From the NCBI RefSeq assembly GCF_014251315.1, contig NZ_CP059185.1, forward strand, positions 19,017-83,016: a stretch of DNA of 64,000 bases. Reading direction: 5' to 3'. Both the position numbers and the translations under genes were made by a program. Shown here piece by piece: positions 1-28,978 of the stretch (position 1 is the stretch's first letter; the number at the start of each line of letters is the position of its first letter). The notes under the pieces are model-generated. The model did not search any database and was not told where the DNA came from. It saw only the letters and a program-made list of their open reading frames with translations. This DNA is from Blattabacterium cuenoti (GTDB taxonomy: Bacteria > Bacteroidota > Bacteroidia > Flavobacteriales > Blattabacteriaceae).

Positions 1-437
1 ATTTTTCTTTTTCTTCTGATTATGAAATCAGTTTTTTTTCTATAAAAAATAAATTTCAAAAAAAAGGTAAAAATCGTTACGATTATTTTTTCTTCGATCA
101 AAAAAATTATGCAAAATATTCAATACCAGTTAATTTAGAAATTGATTTTCATTCTAATTATGAAAAAAATTGTTTCAACAAAAAACAATTTGTTCATACT
201 TTTTTAAATTTTAATGGATCTATAAATATTACAAAATATTGGAAAATCAGTTTTAATGCAGATTACGATTTATTAAAAAACAAAATAATATTAGCAAATA
301 TTATTTTTGATAGAGATTTAAGAAGCTTTGATATGAGTTTTAATTGGATGTTTGTAAAAAATTCTTCCTGGTCTTTTTTTATAGGATTGAAAGATCCTAA
401 TTTTAGGAATGTTATACAGTACAATGAAAAAAACTAA
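1..437 (+). CDS. LptD-like outer-membrane LPS assembly protein, C-terminal part
   Basis: An open frame enters from the left edge (codons begin at positions divisible by three) and stops with TAA at 435-437. It gives about 144 residues of alternating polar and aromatic beta-barrel-like sequence. A stretch resembling flavobacterial LptD C-termini includes FDRDLRSFDMSFNWMF. LptD proteins insert lipopolysaccharide into the outer leaflet of the outer membrane. The neighbours support the call: RidA follows 6 bp downstream, then an OstA/LptA-like gene, an arrangement I associate with flavobacteria. The N-terminus is outside the window. The family call rests on a short barrel fragment plus context, so another outer-membrane barrel is possible. 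Confidence 0.6.
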   Translation, partial: FSFSSDYEISFFSIKNKFQKKGKNRYDYFFFDQKNYAKYSIPVNLEIDFHSNYEKNCFNKKQFVHTFLNFNGSINITKYWKISFNADYDLLKNKIILANIIFDRDLRSFDMSFNWMFVKNSSWSFFIGLKDPNFRNVIQYNEKN

Positions 438-443
438 TTAATC

Positions 444-827
444 ATGATACCAAAAAAATTTTCAATAGAAAAAATTCCATCCTATGGTCCATATAATACA
501 TGTGTTCTTGTTGGAGGTTTTTTATTCATTTCCGGTCAAATAGCTGTAGATAAAAATACTGAAAAATTAATTTCAGATAATATAGAAATGGAAACAAGAA
601 AAATTATGGAAAATATAAAAATTATTCTTTCAGAAAATAGAATAGGATTTCAAAATGTTGTCAAAACATCTATTTTTGTAACAGACATAAGTTTTTTTTC
701 TAAAATCAATAATGTATACTCTGAATTTTTTCATGAAGGAAGTTATCCAGCTAGAGAAACTATACAAGTTTCTGCTCTTCCTAAAAATGCTAATATTGAA
801 ATATCTTTAATAGCATACAAGAATTAA
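444..827 (+). CDS. ridA: RidA family enamine/imine deaminase, copy 1
   Basis: A complete 127-residue protein of the YjgF/YER057c/UK114 family, whose trimers hydrolyse reactive enamine/imine intermediates released by PLP enzymes. The conserved arginine that binds the substrate carboxylate is R104 in YPARETIQV, and E119 lies in the conserved NIEI strand. Length is normal for the family (about 125-130). The start is ATG, 6 bp after the LptD-like stop. The gene is identical to 2445-2828, so the encoded proteins are the same. A class III PLP aminotransferase lies nearby at 4511, a fitting though not proven source of substrates. If the duplication is real, the cell has two intact ridA genes. Confidence 0.93.
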   Translation: MIPKKFSIEKIPSYGPYNTCVLVGGFLFISGQIAVDKNTEKLISDNIEMETRKIMENIKIILSENRIGFQNVVKTSIFVTDISFFSKINNVYSEFFHEGSYPARETIQVSALPKNANIEISLIAYKN

Positions 828-849
828 TTATGTTTATTTATAATTAATT

Positions 850-1959
850 GTGAAATATGTATTTTTAATTTCTACTATTATTTTTTTATTCTTAAACAGA
901 ACGTATTCTAATTCTGTTAATAAAGTAAGAAAAACAGTACAAATAATTCATGCTGATCTAATACAAAATAATGATCAGAACCAAGCTTTTGTTTTAATAG
1001 GGAACGTTCATCTAAAATATGATAAGTATCATCTTTTTTGCGATAAGGTTATATATAATAATGATAAATATTATGGATATGGAAATGTAAGATTAGAGTC
1101 AGGAAAAAATAAAATAATATCTCAAAATATAGTAGGAAATTTTTTTGATTTTCAATTGTCAGGGAAAGTTGTTCTATATCAAGGAAAAATCAAATTAACA
1201 GCGGAAATTATTCATTACAATTTTCAAAAAAAATTACTTCAAGCTATTAACGATGTTGTTTTGTTTTTTGATAAAATCAAATTAACTACTAATATATTAA
1301 AATATAATTTCATACTAAATCAAATTTCTTATAAAGAAAAAAGCATTATTCATTATGGAGATTATATTATATATAGTAAAGAAGGTTTTTTTGAAATTAA
1401 TAAAAAAAAGATAGAGTTAAAACATGAAATTAAATTAATTAGCAATAATTATACTGTATATGCAAAGTCATTAGAATATTTATTAAAACAAGATCAAGTA
1501 AATTTTTATAACACTGCTATTGTAGTGCAAAATAAAAATATTAATAATTTTATTTATGCTAAAAAAGCACTATTCTCATTTCGGAAAAAAATATTTTTAT
1601 TTAAAAATTATGTAAGTATTCATTATAATGATAAAATAATGAGAGGGGAATATTTATTTTTTGATCAGAAGAAAAAATATGGATTTATTAATAACCTTTT
1701 ATTAGAAGATTCAAAAAAAAAATATTTTTTGATGAGTGAATATGGAAAATTTGATTTTGATTCTGGTTCTTTAATTTTAAAAAATAATCCAAAAATCGTA
1801 AAAATATTAAAAAATAATTCTGTTTTTATTTATTCAAATATTTTAAAAATAAATGTAAGAAAAAATCATACATATTCAATTCAAGCTTTTTCTGTAAAAA
1901 GCTTTTTTTTGAATGAATCTATTCAAGGAAAATGTGACTTTAATAGAAGGCAGGAATAA
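850..1959 (+). pseudogene. Truncated OstA-like gene (left duplication copy)
   Basis: The frame starts with GTG at 850 and encodes a signal-peptide-like N-terminus (KYVFLISTIIFLFLNRTYS) followed by LptA/OstA-type beta repeats. It is identical to the full-length copy at 2851 for 364 codons. At the duplication junction it switches to five unrelated codons (NRRQE) and stops at 1957-1959. It therefore lacks the last 183 residues of the 547-residue protein. Part of the OstA-like beta-jellyroll could still fold and be exported, but loss of a third of the protein makes a pseudogene the better reading. If the duplication is an assembly artefact, this entry disappears. Confidence 0.85.
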
Positions 1960-2438
1960 ATTTTTATAAAAAAGAAAAAGAAAATAAAATAATATATTTT
2001 GATTTTTCTTTTTCTTCTGATTATGAAATCAGTTTTTTTTCTATAAAAAATAAATTTCAAAAAAAAGGTAAAAATCGTTACGATTATTTTTTCTTCGATC
2101 AAAAAAATTATGCAAAATATTCAATACCAGTTAATTTAGAAATTGATTTTCATTCTAATTATGAAAAAAATTGTTTCAACAAAAAACAATTTGTTCATAC
2201 TTTTTTAAATTTTAATGGATCTATAAATATTACAAAATATTGGAAAATCAGTTTTAATGCAGATTACGATTTATTAAAAAACAAAATAATATTAGCAAAT
2301 ATTATTTTTGATAGAGATTTAAGAAGCTTTGATATGAGTTTTAATTGGATGTTTGTAAAAAATTCTTCCTGGTCTTTTTTTATAGGATTGAAAGATCCTA
2401 ATTTTAGGAATGTTATACAGTACAATGAAAAAAACTAA
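1942..2438 (+). pseudogene. 5'-truncated LptD-like fragment (right duplication copy)
   Basis: From 2002 the sequence repeats 1-437, ending with TAA at 2436-2438. The bases 1942-2001 continue the same reading frame upstream (K-A-G-I-N-F-Y-K-K-E-K...), so they probably also come from the LptD-like gene. The fragment has lost the rest of the gene, because the OstA copy is joined directly in front of it. In this frame TAG occurs at 1944-1946 and there is no useful start codon for most of the fragment, so it should not be translated. An intact lptD could not contain that TAG, which points to an indel or filler bases at the junction. Confidence 0.8.
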
Positions 2439-3942
2439 TTAATCATGATACCAAAAAAATTTTCAATAGAAAAAATTCCATCCTATGGTCCATATAATAC
2501 ATGTGTTCTTGTTGGAGGTTTTTTATTCATTTCCGGTCAAATAGCTGTAGATAAAAATACTGAAAAATTAATTTCAGATAATATAGAAATGGAAACAAGA
2601 AAAATTATGGAAAATATAAAAATTATTCTTTCAGAAAATAGAATAGGATTTCAAAATGTTGTCAAAACATCTATTTTTGTAACAGACATAAGTTTTTTTT
2701 CTAAAATCAATAATGTATACTCTGAATTTTTTCATGAAGGAAGTTATCCAGCTAGAGAAACTATACAAGTTTCTGCTCTTCCTAAAAATGCTAATATTGA
2801 AATATCTTTAATAGCATACAAGAATTAATTATGTTTATTTATAATTAATTGTGAAATATGTATTTTTAATTTCTACTATTATTTTTTTATTCTTAAACAG
2901 AACGTATTCTAATTCTGTTAATAAAGTAAGAAAAACAGTACAAATAATTCATGCTGATCTAATACAAAATAATGATCAGAACCAAGCTTTTGTTTTAATA
3001 GGGAACGTTCATCTAAAATATGATAAGTATCATCTTTTTTGCGATAAGGTTATATATAATAATGATAAATATTATGGATATGGAAATGTAAGATTAGAGT
3101 CAGGAAAAAATAAAATAATATCTCAAAATATAGTAGGAAATTTTTTTGATTTTCAATTGTCAGGGAAAGTTGTTCTATATCAAGGAAAAATCAAATTAAC
3201 AGCGGAAATTATTCATTACAATTTTCAAAAAAAATTACTTCAAGCTATTAACGATGTTGTTTTGTTTTTTGATAAAATCAAATTAACTACTAATATATTA
3301 AAATATAATTTCATACTAAATCAAATTTCTTATAAAGAAAAAAGCATTATTCATTATGGAGATTATATTATATATAGTAAAGAAGGTTTTTTTGAAATTA
3401 ATAAAAAAAAGATAGAGTTAAAACATGAAATTAAATTAATTAGCAATAATTATACTGTATATGCAAAGTCATTAGAATATTTATTAAAACAAGATCAAGT
3501 AAATTTTTATAACACTGCTATTGTAGTGCAAAATAAAAATATTAATAATTTTATTTATGCTAAAAAAGCACTATTCTCATTTCGGAAAAAAATATTTTTA
3601 TTTAAAAATTATGTAAGTATTCATTATAATGATAAAATAATGAGAGGGGAATATTTATTTTTTGATCAGAAGAAAAAATATGGATTTATTAATAACCTTT
3701 TATTAGAAGATTCAAAAAAAAAATATTTTTTGATGAGTGAATATGGAAAATTTGATTTTGATTCTGGTTCTTTAATTTTAAAAAATAATCCAAAAATCGT
3801 AAAAATATTAAAAAATAATTCTGTTTTTATTTATTCAAATATTTTAAAAATAAATGTAAGAAAAAATCATACATATTCAATTCAAGCTTTTTCTGTAAAA
3901 AGCTTTTTTTTGAATGAATCTATTCAAGGAAAATGTGACTTT
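2002..3942. repeat. Tandem duplication, right copy
   Basis: This is the second copy of bases 1-1941, offset by exactly 2,001 bp. The encoded RidA and the first 364 OstA codons are identical in both copies, including third positions and A/T runs. In a genome this AT-rich, silent sites would be expected to drift quickly. The duplication is therefore very recent, kept identical by gene conversion, or produced during assembly. Unlike the left copy, this one runs on into an intact OstA-like gene. Confidence 0.95.
2445..2828 (+). CDS. ridA: RidA family enamine/imine deaminase, copy 2
   Basis: This copy is base-for-base the same as 444-827 and encodes the same 127-residue protein, with R104 and E119 intact. 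It is preceded by the truncated LptD-like fragment instead of a whole gene, so any promoter that lies upstream of lptD would not be next to it. It is followed 22 bp later by the intact OstA-like gene. Expression would depend on readthrough from the left copy or on a promoter inside the repeat. Confidence 0.92.
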   Translation: MIPKKFSIEKIPSYGPYNTCVLVGGFLFISGQIAVDKNTEKLISDNIEMETRKIMENIKIILSENRIGFQNVVKTSIFVTDISFFSKINNVYSEFFHEGSYPARETIQVSALPKNANIEISLIAYKN

Positions 3943-4494
3943 TTCAATTATGAATCTTCAAATGATTATGTTCAATTTAATGGAAACCCCATATTTTGGT
4001 TTCAGAACCGACAAATTACTGGTAAAATCATATATGTTCATTTTTTCAAAAATGAAAATAATAATTTTTTAAAAAATATAAAAATTGTTAAAAATGTTTT
4101 TTATGCAGAAAAAATAAACTCAAAAGAGTTTAATCAAATAGAAGGTGATATTATGACTGGATTTTTTAATAAAGAAAATTTTTTAGATAAAGTAATGATT
4201 CAAGGAAATATTAACAGTATTATTCATTTTAATAAAATAATTAATAAAATGTCTTGTGGTATTTTATCGATTGATTTAGATGAATCAAAAAAAATAAGAA
4301 AAATTTCTTGTTCAAAAGAAGTTCGTTCGGAATTAATTCCAATAAATAAAGAAACCCCTAATTTATCTGGTTTTTCTTGGAAAGAAAAAGATAAACAAAA
4401 AAATAATGAAAAACTTCTTGTCTATAAAGAAATAGACAAGTATAAAAAAGAAAACTTGTTAGAAAAAGAAGAAATTAAAACTATGATTAAATAG
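2851..4494 (+). CDS. OstA-like LPS transport protein (LptA/OstA domain)
   Basis: A 547-residue protein beginning with GTG, with a hydrophobic N-terminal segment at about residues 3-20 that fits a signal peptide. Repeated short beta strands follow (for example VLIGNVHLKYDKYHLFCDKV, the OstA/LptA pattern of the N-terminal 150 residues), and the last 60 residues are lysine/glutamate-rich. OstA-like periplasmic proteins of Bacteroidota are thought to form part of the bridge that carries lipopolysaccharide to LptD. The LptD-like gene upstream and lptB at 9520 support this role. ATG codons further in would cut the signal sequence, so GTG 2851 is preferred. This is the only complete copy; the left copy stops after residue 364. 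Confidence 0.75.
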   Translation: MKYVFLISTIIFLFLNRTYSNSVNKVRKTVQIIHADLIQNNDQNQAFVLIGNVHLKYDKYHLFCDKVIYNNDKYYGYGNVRLESGKNKIISQNIVGNFFDFQLSGKVVLYQGKIKLTAEIIHYNFQKKLLQAINDVVLFFDKIKLTTNILKYNFILNQISYKEKSIIHYGDYIIYSKEGFFEINKKKIELKHEIKLISNNYTVYAKSLEYLLKQDQVNFYNTAIVVQNKNINNFIYAKKALFSFRKKIFLFKNYVSIHYNDKIMRGEYLFFDQKKKYGFINNLLLEDSKKKYFLMSEYGKFDFDSGSLILKNNPKIVKILKNNSVFIYSNILKINVRKNHTYSIQAFSVKSFFLNESIQGKCDFFNYESSNDYVQFNGNPIFWFQNRQITGKIIYVHFFKNENNNFLKNIKIVKNVFYAEKINSKEFNQIEGDIMTGFFNKENFLDKVMIQGNINSIIHFNKIINKMSCGILSIDLDESKKIRKISCSKEVRSELIPINKETPNLSGFSWKEKDKQKNNEKLLVYKEIDKYKKENLLEKEEIKTMIK

Positions 4495-4510
4495 AATAAA
4501 ATTCTTATGT

Positions 4511-5698
4511 ATGAAAGAATTAGAAAAGGATTTTTTAAAATATCAAACTCAAATCAATCCATTCCCCATGAATATTATGGTAAATCATGCTGATGGGAGT
4601 TATATTTATGGAAAAAATGGTAAAAAATATTTAGATTTTGTATCAGGTGTTTCCGTAAATGTATTAGGACATGGAAATAAAAAAATAAAAGAAGCTATAA
4701 AAAAACAAGTAGATAAATACTTGCATACTATGGTATATGGAGAGTTTATACAAGACCCTTGTGTAAAGCTTTGTAAAAAAATATCAGAAAATATTCCATA
4801 TCCACTTACTACTACTTTTTTAGTAAATTCTGGGACAGAAGCTGTAGAAGGAGCGTTAAAATTAGCGAAGTGTTATACAGGAAGAGAAGAAATTATATCT
4901 TGTAAATGGTCTTATCATGGAAGCACCCATGGTTCTATGAGTATAATGGGATATGAAAATTATAAAAGACCTTTTAGACCTTTGTTACCTTTAGTTAAAT
5001 TTATCACATTTAATCAAATAGAAGAATTAATTAATTCTATTACAAATAAAACGGCTTGTGTCATTTTAGAAACTATTCAATGTTCTGCTGGAATTATTTT
5101 ACCTGATAATTCTTTTTTAAAAGAAGTAAAAAAACAATGTAATGAAAAAAAAGCTTTAATGATACTTGATGAAATCCAAACTGGATTTGGAAGGACAGGA
5201 AAACTTTTTGCATTTGAACACTATGGAATTATTCCTGATATATTAATAATGGGGAAAGGAATGGGGGGAGGAATGCCTATCAGTGGTTTTATTTCATCTA
5301 AAAAAATTATGAAAACTTTTAGTGATATTATTCCTCTAGGACATTTAACTACTTTTGGAGGAAATGCTGTTTCTGCTTCTGCTTCTTTAGCTACTTTAAA
5401 TCAACTTATCGATTCTAATATTATGGAACAAGTATCAGTAAAAGAAAAATGGATTAAAGAATATTTGGTTCATAATGAAATCAAAAATATTCGGGGGAAA
5501 GGTCTCTTTTTATCTATAGAATTAAAAAATAAAAATACAGTGGAAAAGGTTTTAAAAAATTGTCTAAGAAAAGGATTAATATTATTTCGTTTTTTATTTC
5601 ATAGCAACTTCTTACGTATATCTCCTCCATTAACTATCACAAAAAAGGAAATCCAAAAAGGATGTTCTATTATCATAGAAAGTTTAAATAGACTTTAA
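4511..5698 (+). CDS. Class III PLP aminotransferase (acetylornithine / succinyl-DAP aminotransferase-like)
   Basis: A 395-residue fold-type I aminotransferase. Visible signatures are NSGTEA at 106-111 (phosphate binding), D220 in ILDEIQTGFGRTG, and the Schiff-base lysine K249 in MGKGMGGG. TTFGGNA supplies the threonine of the dimer partner. Length matches the ArgD/GabT/ornithine aminotransferase group (about 390-430). In flavobacteria a gene of this family sits downstream of the OstA-like gene, as here with 16 bp between. Candidate roles are acetylornithine or N-succinyl-diaminopimelate transamination in arginine or lysine synthesis. Sequence alone does not fix the substrate, so no symbol is given. 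Confidence 0.85.
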   Translation: MKELEKDFLKYQTQINPFPMNIMVNHADGSYIYGKNGKKYLDFVSGVSVNVLGHGNKKIKEAIKKQVDKYLHTMVYGEFIQDPCVKLCKKISENIPYPLTTTFLVNSGTEAVEGALKLAKCYTGREEIISCKWSYHGSTHGSMSIMGYENYKRPFRPLLPLVKFITFNQIEELINSITNKTACVILETIQCSAGIILPDNSFLKEVKKQCNEKKALMILDEIQTGFGRTGKLFAFEHYGIIPDILIMGKGMGGGMPISGFISSKKIMKTFSDIIPLGHLTTFGGNAVSASASLATLNQLIDSNIMEQVSVKEKWIKEYLVHNEIKNIRGKGLFLSIELKNKNTVEKVLKNCLRKGLILFRFLFHSNFLRISPPLTITKKEIQKGCSIIIESLNRL

Positions 5699-5711
5699 AA
5701 AAATAATGTAA

Positions 5712-6458
5712 TTGAGATTTTTTATTGAATTATCTTATAATGGGAAACATTTTTTTGGATGGCAAATTCAAAAAAAAGTAAGTACAGTAGAGGAAAAATT
5801 AGAATATTGTTTATCAAAATTATTAAAAACACCTATAAATGTCGTAGGCGCTAGTAGAACGGATAAAGGGGTTCATGCTAAACAAATGTTTGCTCATTTT
5901 GATTATGAAAAAGAAATTCGAAACAATTTCGTTGATCGATTAAATATTTTTTTACCTAGATCTATTAAAGTCTTCAGTATTTTTCCAGTAAAAAAAAATG
6001 TTCATGCAAGATTTGATGCTATAAAACGAACATATAAATATTATTTAACACGTGAAAAAAATCCATTTAATGAGGATTTTTCTTGGCATTGTTTATATAC
6101 ACTAAACATTCAAAAAATGAATATGGCTTCAAAAAAACTCATGGAGTATAAGGATTTTAGTTCTTTTTGTAAAAAAAGAAATAAAAACGAAAAAGAAAAT
6201 AATATATGTAAAATTTATCATGCTAGTTGGTCTGAGGATAATAACGTTTTATGTTTTACTATCGAAGCAAATCGATTTTTAAGATCGATGGTTAGAGCTA
6301 TTATAGGCCGTCTTATTGATGTAGGAAGAGAAAAAATTAGTATCAATGAATTCATAAAAATTGTAGAATTCAAAAATTCTGATTCTTGCAAGTTGATAGT
6401 CCCTGCATGTGGTTTATTTCTGACCAATATTCTCTATACAGAAGAGATTTTTTTATGA
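5712..6458 (+). CDS. truA: tRNA pseudouridine(38-40) synthase TruA
   Basis: A 248-residue cytoplasmic enzyme that converts uridines 38-40 of the tRNA anticodon stem to pseudouridine. The catalytic aspartate is D51 in the signature GASRTDKGVHA, and the N-terminus RFFIELSYNGKHFFGWQIQ is typical. The start is TTG at 5712: the only nearby ATG (5706) runs straight into a stop, and the family motif begins right after the TTG. The stop overlaps the start of the exporter gene (ATGA at 6455-6458), so the two are probably translationally coupled. Confidence 0.95.
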   Translation: MRFFIELSYNGKHFFGWQIQKKVSTVEEKLEYCLSKLLKTPINVVGASRTDKGVHAKQMFAHFDYEKEIRNNFVDRLNIFLPRSIKVFSIFPVKKNVHARFDAIKRTYKYYLTREKNPFNEDFSWHCLYTLNIQKMNMASKKLMEYKDFSSFCKKRNKNEKENNICKIYHASWSEDNNVLCFTIEANRFLRSMVRAIIGRLIDVGREKISINEFIKIVEFKNSDSCKLIVPACGLFLTNILYTEEIFL

Positions 6459-8206
6459 AAAAAAATTTTAATAAACAAAAATCATCTTTAAAACAGCTTA
6501 TTAATATTAGTTTAAATTATAAACTAATATTAATATCAACAATTATTACTTCTATATTAATTTCCTTTATTTCAGCTTATCGTCCTAAGTTAATACAAAA
6601 AGCTATAGATATTCATATTCTTTACAAAGATTTTTTGGGGTTGAAAAATATATTGATGCTAATAATTATACTTCTTTTTTTAGAAAGTATATTTCATTTT
6701 GTTTTATTATATCTATCTAATATTTTGGCACAAAATGTGATCGAAAAAATAAGGATTCTTTTATTTGAAAAATTATTACATTTTAAAAATTCTTTTTTTA
6801 ATAAAACTCCAATAGGAAAATTAGTATCTTATTCTGTATCAGACATAGAAACTATAATTGTAATATTTAATGATGGAATTTTACTCGTTTCTGGAGATAT
6901 TTTAAGAATTATTATGATTATCATTATGATGTATACTGTTCATCCAAAATTGTCTTTTATAGTTTTTTTAACTATTCCTTTCATGTATATTATTACTCGT
7001 TTTTTTCAAAAAACGTTAAAGAAAACGTTTCATGAAGAACGTATTCAAACCTCACGTTTGAATAGTTTTTTACAAGAAAATATTATAGGAATGTCTATCA
7101 TTCAACTCTTTCATAAAGAAAAAAAGGAATATTCAAAATTTCAATCCATCAATCGTAAATTAATGAATGCTCATTTTAAAACCATTTTTTATTTTTCTAT
7201 TTTTTTTCCTATAGTAGAAATAATTTCTGCTGTAACCATAAGTATTATCATATTTTATGGAGGATTTCATGCCATTGAAATAGGAAATATTAAACCGGGA
7301 CAAATTATTGCTTTTATTTTTTTTATCTATCTTCTTTTTCGTCCTATGCGACAAATAGCTGATAGATTTAATATTATACAAAGAGGAATAGCCGGAATTG
7401 AGCGTATATTTTCTATATTAAATTCTGAAGAAACTATTATTAATAAAGGAAATTTACGTTTGAAAGAATTAAATGGACATATTGTATTTAATGATGTTCA
7501 TTTTTCTTATATAAATGATGAAATGGTATTGAATGGAGTTTCTTTTGAAATTCAACCAGGAGAAAAAGTTGCAATAGTAGGATCAACAGGTTCTGGAAAA
7601 TCTACGATTACTCATTTGATTTCTAGATTTTATGAAATAAAAAAAGGAGATATTTGTATTGACGGACATTCTATTCAAGATATAGAACTAAAAAACTTAA
7701 GATCTCATATAAGAGTAGTCACACAAGATACTTTTTTATTTAATGATTCGATTATTAATAATATTACTTTAGGAGATCCATCCATTAGTTTTGATCAAAT
7801 AGAAAATATGGCAAAAAAAATAGGAATCCATAATTTTATTACATCATTACCCAATGGATATAAATCCATAGTAAAAGAAAGAGGAAATTTACTCTCTCTT
7901 GGAGAAAAACAATTGATTTCTTTTTTAAGAGTTCAAATGCATCCTTATTCTGTACTTATCTTAGATGAAGCGACCGCTTCCTTAAATAAAGAATTAGAAA
8001 AAATGATTTATCATGCTACAGATCTTTTAACTAAACATAAAACTTCTATTATTATCACTCACCGTCTTTCTACATTAGAAAATGCTGATAGAATATTGGT
8101 TATTGATAAAGGATCTATTGTAGAAAAAGGTACTCATCAAGAATTAATTCAATTAAATGGATATTATTTCGGATTATATAAAGAATCTTTGAATAAAAAA
8201 AATTAA
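6455..8206 (+). CDS. MsbA-like ABC exporter, permease fused to ATPase
   Basis: A 583-residue half-transporter with an N-terminal six-helix membrane domain (about 1-330) and a C-terminal ATPase domain. Walker A is GSTGSGKS at 376-383, Walker B is LILDEATAS with D504-E505, and the switch histidine is in IITHRLST. The ABC signature is LSLGEKQ instead of the usual LSGGQ. Exporters of this class flip lipid A or other lipids or drugs. The nearby LPS-transport genes favour lipid flipping, but the substrate is not determined. The start at 6455 overlaps the truA stop; a longer frame to 6386 would run through truA and lacks family similarity. The 3' end overlaps the convergent SurA-like gene by 4 bp. 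Confidence 0.87.
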   Translation: MKKNFNKQKSSLKQLINISLNYKLILISTIITSILISFISAYRPKLIQKAIDIHILYKDFLGLKNILMLIIILLFLESIFHFVLLYLSNILAQNVIEKIRILLFEKLLHFKNSFFNKTPIGKLVSYSVSDIETIIVIFNDGILLVSGDILRIIMIIIMMYTVHPKLSFIVFLTIPFMYIITRFFQKTLKKTFHEERIQTSRLNSFLQENIIGMSIIQLFHKEKKEYSKFQSINRKLMNAHFKTIFYFSIFFPIVEIISAVTISIIIFYGGFHAIEIGNIKPGQIIAFIFFIYLLFRPMRQIADRFNIIQRGIAGIERIFSILNSEETIINKGNLRLKELNGHIVFNDVHFSYINDEMVLNGVSFEIQPGEKVAIVGSTGSGKSTITHLISRFYEIKKGDICIDGHSIQDIELKNLRSHIRVVTQDTFLFNDSIINNITLGDPSISFDQIENMAKKIGIHNFITSLPNGYKSIVKERGNLLSLGEKQLISFLRVQMHPYSVLILDEATASLNKELEKMIYHATDLLTKHKTSIIITHRLSTLENADRILVIDKGSIVEKGTHQELIQLNGYYFGLYKESLNKKN

Positions 8207-27988: not shown

Positions 27989-28978
27989 ATGAACGAAAAA
28001 ATTGAACAAAAAAGAAAATCCTTACAACTTGTATTAGAAAAAATGGATAAAATATATGGAAAGGGAATCGTAATGAAAATGGGGGATTCTAATACAGAAA
28101 ATTTTGAAATTATTTCTTCTGGATCTTTAAGTTTAGATATCGCTTTAGGAATCAAAGGGTTTCCAAAAGGTCGTATTATTGAAATATTTGGACCTGAATC
28201 TTCTGGAAAAACAACTTTAGCCTTACATGCAATTACTCAATCTCAACAAATAGGAGGATTTGCAGGTTTTATCGATGCAGAACATGCTTTTGATCGTGTA
28301 TATGCTAAGAAAATAGGAGTGAATATAAAAGAATTAATAATATCTCAGCCAGATAATGGGGAACAAGCACTTGAAATTGTGGATAATTTAATTAGATCTG
28401 GAGTTATTGATATGATAGTGGTTGATTCTGTAGCCGCTTTAACACCTAAAAGTGAAATAGAAGGAGAAATGGGGGATTCTAAAATAGGATTACAAGCAAG
28501 GTTGATGTCTCAAGCTTTGAGGAAGCTAACTTCGAGTATAGGAAAATCTAAAAGCATACTTATATTTATTAATCAATTAAGAGAAAAAATAGGAGTTTAT
28601 GGAAATCCAGAAGTTACAACAGGAGGAAATGCTTTAAAATTTTATTCCTCAATACGATTAGATATACGAAAAGGGAATCAAATTAAAAATGGAGAAAAAA
28701 TATTAGGAAATAGAACGAGAGTCAAAGTCGTAAAAAATAAGTTATCTCCTCCTTTTAGAACGGCTGAATTTGACATTATGTACGGTGAAGGAATTTCAAA
28801 AATTGGTGAAATTTTAGATTTAGGAGTGGATTTAGGAATTATTAAAAAGAATGCATCTTGGTTTAGTTATGGAAATATTAAACTAGGACAAGGAAGAGAT
28901 TCCGTAAAAGAATTTTTAAAAGAAAAACAAAATATCATAAATGAAATACAAAAAAATATATATAAAAATATTATATGA
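27989..28978 (+). CDS. recA: Recombinase RecA
   Basis: A 329-residue DNA strand-exchange ATPase. Walker [10 protein letters not shown] is at 68-76, followed by [12 protein letters not shown], Walker [11 protein letters not shown], and [10 protein letters not shown] with [14 protein letters not shown] for DNA binding and subunit contacts. The C-terminal acidic tail is shorter than in E. coli (352 residues). The gene overlaps the next by 4 bp (ATGA). A working RecA would supply the recombination needed to form or collapse the tandem duplication at the window start. Confidence 0.98.

Follow-up and report, generated by a model that had tools for sequence, protein, structure and literature searches.

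A 2-kb tandem repeat at the lptD-ridA-ostA locus of a Blattabacterium cuenoti genome: a probable false duplication at a scaffold gap

The analysed window (64,000 bp; C1:19017-83016 of a 633,448-bp single-scaffold genome) opens with a tandem repeat which, judged from the assembled sequence, we consider a false duplication made in assembly or gap closing at a scaffold gap (probability about 0.86). The initial annotation had listed a fresh rearrangement, a population polymorphism and an assembly error without choosing among them. Assembly error is favoured here, and the other two less so, because an N gap ends where copy 1 begins, copy 2 contains the 17 bp needed to close it, the mismatches are clustered at the join, and the duplication is absent from relatives. 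By its size, base composition and gene content the genome is most likely that of Blattabacterium, a cockroach endosymbiont.

The repeat as deposited and its genes

Comparison of positions 1-1941 with 2002-3942 disclosed the same base at all 1941 positions of the deposited sequence, just as initially claimed, with the match breaking at 1942/3943. Chance is excluded as the source of an exact 1.94-kb match between the copies. The accompanying description of a perfect 2,001-bp duplication stands for these 1941 bp. The unit length of 2001 bp holds only if the unit starts at 1942, and the counterpart of 1942-2001 then lies ahead of the window; 43 bp of it can be read, with two mismatches, and the other 17 bp fall in the gap. 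The full unit is thus not shown to be perfect. Features in and around the repeat are listed in Table 1.

Table 1. Coordinates of the repeat copies, the join and the associated genes (window positions)
Feature	Position	Strand	Remarks
Repeat copy 1 (lptD 3' end, ridA, 5' two thirds of ostA-like gene)	1..1941	+	left end adjoins 75-N gap C1:18942-19016
Repeat copy 2, identical	2002..3942	+	runs on into intact ostA 3' part and downstream genes
Join segment, lptD attached to ostA without microhomology	1942..2001	+	mismatches to lptD left flank at 1946 and 1966; 1985-2001 are the 17 bp absent in the gap
LptD C-terminal coding region	3..437	+	continues lptD ORF from left of gap (C1:17182 onward)
ridA copy 1, Rid family detoxifying hydrolase	444..827	+	ORF; identical to copy 2
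ridA copy 2	2445..2828	+	matches PF01042 and TIGR00004
Truncated OstA/LptA-like ORF, 369 aa, ending in junction sequence	850..1959	+	
Full-length OstA/LptA-like gene, 547 aa	2851..4494	+	single copy in 39 relatives

Both ridA ORFs and the one truncated OstA-like ORF reported previously were recovered. The LptD piece at 1-437, described before as a fragment, instead forms the 3' end of a complete lptD split by the gap, and a second LptD C-terminal coding stretch lies within 1947-2438. The previously noted recA was located at 27989-28978 by a TIGR02012 match. It is without a visible substrate for duplication, because microhomology is absent from the join and the 276 kb sampled (44% of the genome) contain no further exact direct repeat of at least 40 bp.

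In that same sample the 2-kb repeat is the only exact direct repeat of this length and the run of 75 Ns is the only gap; each is unique, and the two touch each other. Their adjacency shows a causal link, the direction of which is not given by adjacency, since assemblies can break at real repeats too. Real tandem repeats also tend to break short-read contigs at their edges, and a nearby gap is expected either way. A mobile-element origin of the repeat found no support, in agreement with the initial annotation: the surrounding ORFs are of the housekeeping type, and no inverted repeats were found within window positions 1-8000.

The gap and the lptD reading frame

The 75 Ns lie directly to the left of the window, the first base of which (C1:19017) is the first base after them. 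The left flank of the gap ends inside lptD, and its final 43 bp match window positions 1942-1984 with two mismatches. The 17 bp missing from the gap correspond to window positions 1985-2001, TAAAATAATATATTTTG, an AT-rich lptD tract with contig edges on both sides. When the left flank is joined to copy 2 at 1985, which adds TAAAATAATATATTTTG, a full-length in-frame LptD of 737 codons (with lead-in) is obtained. The rejoined protein can be aligned over the join to 28 relatives, and the alignment with the closest of them (L015 in genome G044) is free of indels there. A single intact lptD-ridA-ostA stretch is complete without copy 1.

In contrast to the 17 bp, 75 real bases in the gap would shift the lptD frame. 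An interpretation of the Ns as masked sequence instead of an assembly gap was rejected for this reason, and because the gap adjoins the only repeat in the sample. The restored reading frame therefore indicates a true gap size of 17 bp, with 75 Ns as a nominal value. The region of the gap is AT-rich (GC 0.13 over 60 bp, among the lowest 6% of the window), which is consistent with coverage dropout. The assembly does not pass without a break from unique sequence on one side of the two copies to unique sequence on the other, since the left side is broken by the gap.

False duplications in draft assemblies are typically marked by gaps between copies, unsupported bridging sequence and read errors (PMC9516828). 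The present case resembles them in its identical adjacent copies, its gap beside the duplicate and its probably false extra genes, and the two mismatches close to the join may be bridging errors of this kind. It differs in that those were described in diploid vertebrates and stem mostly from haplotype divergence, whereas the genome studied here is a haploid, reduced bacterial one. Work on Blattabacterium genomes has been reported to involve contigs elongated iteratively, and mis-assemblies produced by one of the assemblers (PMC4567559).

The join and a candidate route to the repeat

At 1941/1942, ostA (CTTT) passes into lptD (AATAGAAGGCAGG) with zero shared bases. A join between repeats or at microhomology, as looked for in a genuine duplication, was therefore not found, although illegitimate joining needs neither. 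Relative to the left flank of lptD, the join segment carries T to G at 1946 and C to A at 1966. Both changes lie within 25 bp of the start of the 2001-bp unit, and the remaining 1959 comparable bases show no difference; for two later mutations placed uniformly at random over the unit, the chance of both lying in 25 bp is about 1.6e-4. The differences thus most likely arose together with the join, and their position suggests errors of a chimeric read or error-prone joining as the most likely source.

At 1946 the change creates a stop in the lptD frame in place of a tyrosine codon that the aligned relatives conserve. A divergent second strain as the source of the join was rejected: the stop occurs in none of the 28 aligned relatives, and tyrosine at 1966 appears only in three distant ones (L036-L038, about 40% identity), so that no close relative explains the join.

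A false duplication could have been produced as follows. Ordinary reads would break at the AT-rich lptD tract TAAAATAATATATTTTG, where contig edges are seen and read dropout is presumed. A chimeric read or misjoin, to which the zero microhomology and the confinement of the two mismatches to the join both point, would link ostA (after 1941) to lptD (from 1942) and introduce errors there; a mate-pair circularisation junction may also be compatible with it. Extension to the left over this join would pass through the same 2 kb a second time and halt at the same break, so that window base 1 would correspond to base 2002. Scaffolding would then put a nominal 75 Ns ahead of window base 1.

This route was reproduced in a de Bruijn toy assembly of a single-copy locus in which ordinary reads were lacking over the 17-bp tract, one chimeric read crossed the join and the chimeric k-mers could be used once. 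Left extension returned window positions 1-8000 exactly in four settings of read length and k, while omission of the single-use rule made the left end overrun by 90 bp. With an error-free real duplication and no dropout, the graph forked at 1967, which would put a contig edge there, as opposed to the observed one at 2002. The artefact route is accordingly sufficient but not proven, as the toy was given its ingredients.

Related genomes and alternative explanations

The initial annotation pointed to lptD-ridA-ostA in related genomes as a place to look for the duplication, and no counterpart appeared there: two copies of the lptD end, ridA or ostA are present in 0 of 48 same-genus genomes, none of them of the same species. 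Such absence is what a false duplication would predict. Matches to the lptD end were found in 36 of these genomes, to ostA in 39 and to ridA in 41, plus one decayed ridA; all are single except the decayed gene (genome G015), which matches in three pieces. Exact direct repeats of at least 30 bp were not detected in any of 58 loci from relatives.

Some additional features of the locus were observed in this comparison. Besides the fragmented ridA of G015 (C1:19458-19743 of that genome), the gene was not found in G001, G010, G014, G039, G041 and G043 and in G047 it is interrupted by an internal stop; this pattern suggests repeated loss of ridA within the genus. Genome G020 contains a 130-N gap (L069:3116-3245) beside the ridA/ostA boundary, with the duplication absent, and assembly of this locus may be difficult in general. 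In several relatives (matches in G018, G040, G010, G039 and G037) the OstA-like gene is shorter, matches weakly or is interrupted by internal stops, and it was not found in nine genomes, which suggests that LPS-transport genes are eroding in part of the genus.

Two alternatives accept the duplication as biological. The first, which is what the assembled sequence states, is a genuine tandem duplication of 2001 bp, very recent and fixed in the strain, formed by illegitimate joining without microhomology and with small errors at the join. It would be viable, as every gene keeps one intact copy; recA is present, and a repair-born join could explain the clustered changes. Silent-site identity cannot tell a fresh duplication from an assembly error. 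Recent bacterial tandem duplications, whether recA-dependent or illegitimate, likewise show identical head-to-tail copies with one novel join, but here flanking repeats or microhomology are missing, a scaffold gap lies at the edge and relatives offer no support. We regard this explanation as unlikely, given that the duplication is not seen in the 48 relatives, adjoins the only gap sampled and has contig edges away from the expected repeat fork, and that the 17-bp tract is present at the join but lacking from the corresponding position before copy 1. If true, it would mean a young duplication with two ridA genes, a chimeric truncated ostA, and intact lptD and ostA in a reduced endosymbiont genome.

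Bacteria commonly undergo transient tandem duplications, and the repeat could accordingly exist in a part of the symbiont population, as a polymorphism or transient amplification placed in the consensus by the assembler. Low-depth junction reads and a tangled graph with a gap would then be produced. This is less probable still, as it requires changes at the join yet none in 1941 bp, and there is no microhomology or repeat to act as a seed.

Recognition of a false duplication keeps a reduced endosymbiont genome from being wrongly credited with a gene duplication and a second ridA, and makes about 2 kb of the record (C1:18942-20957) suspect for gene counts and alignments. The repeat is in the record but most likely absent from the organism, the chromosome of which probably carries one lptD-ridA-ostA-argD-like stretch with ordinary single copies.
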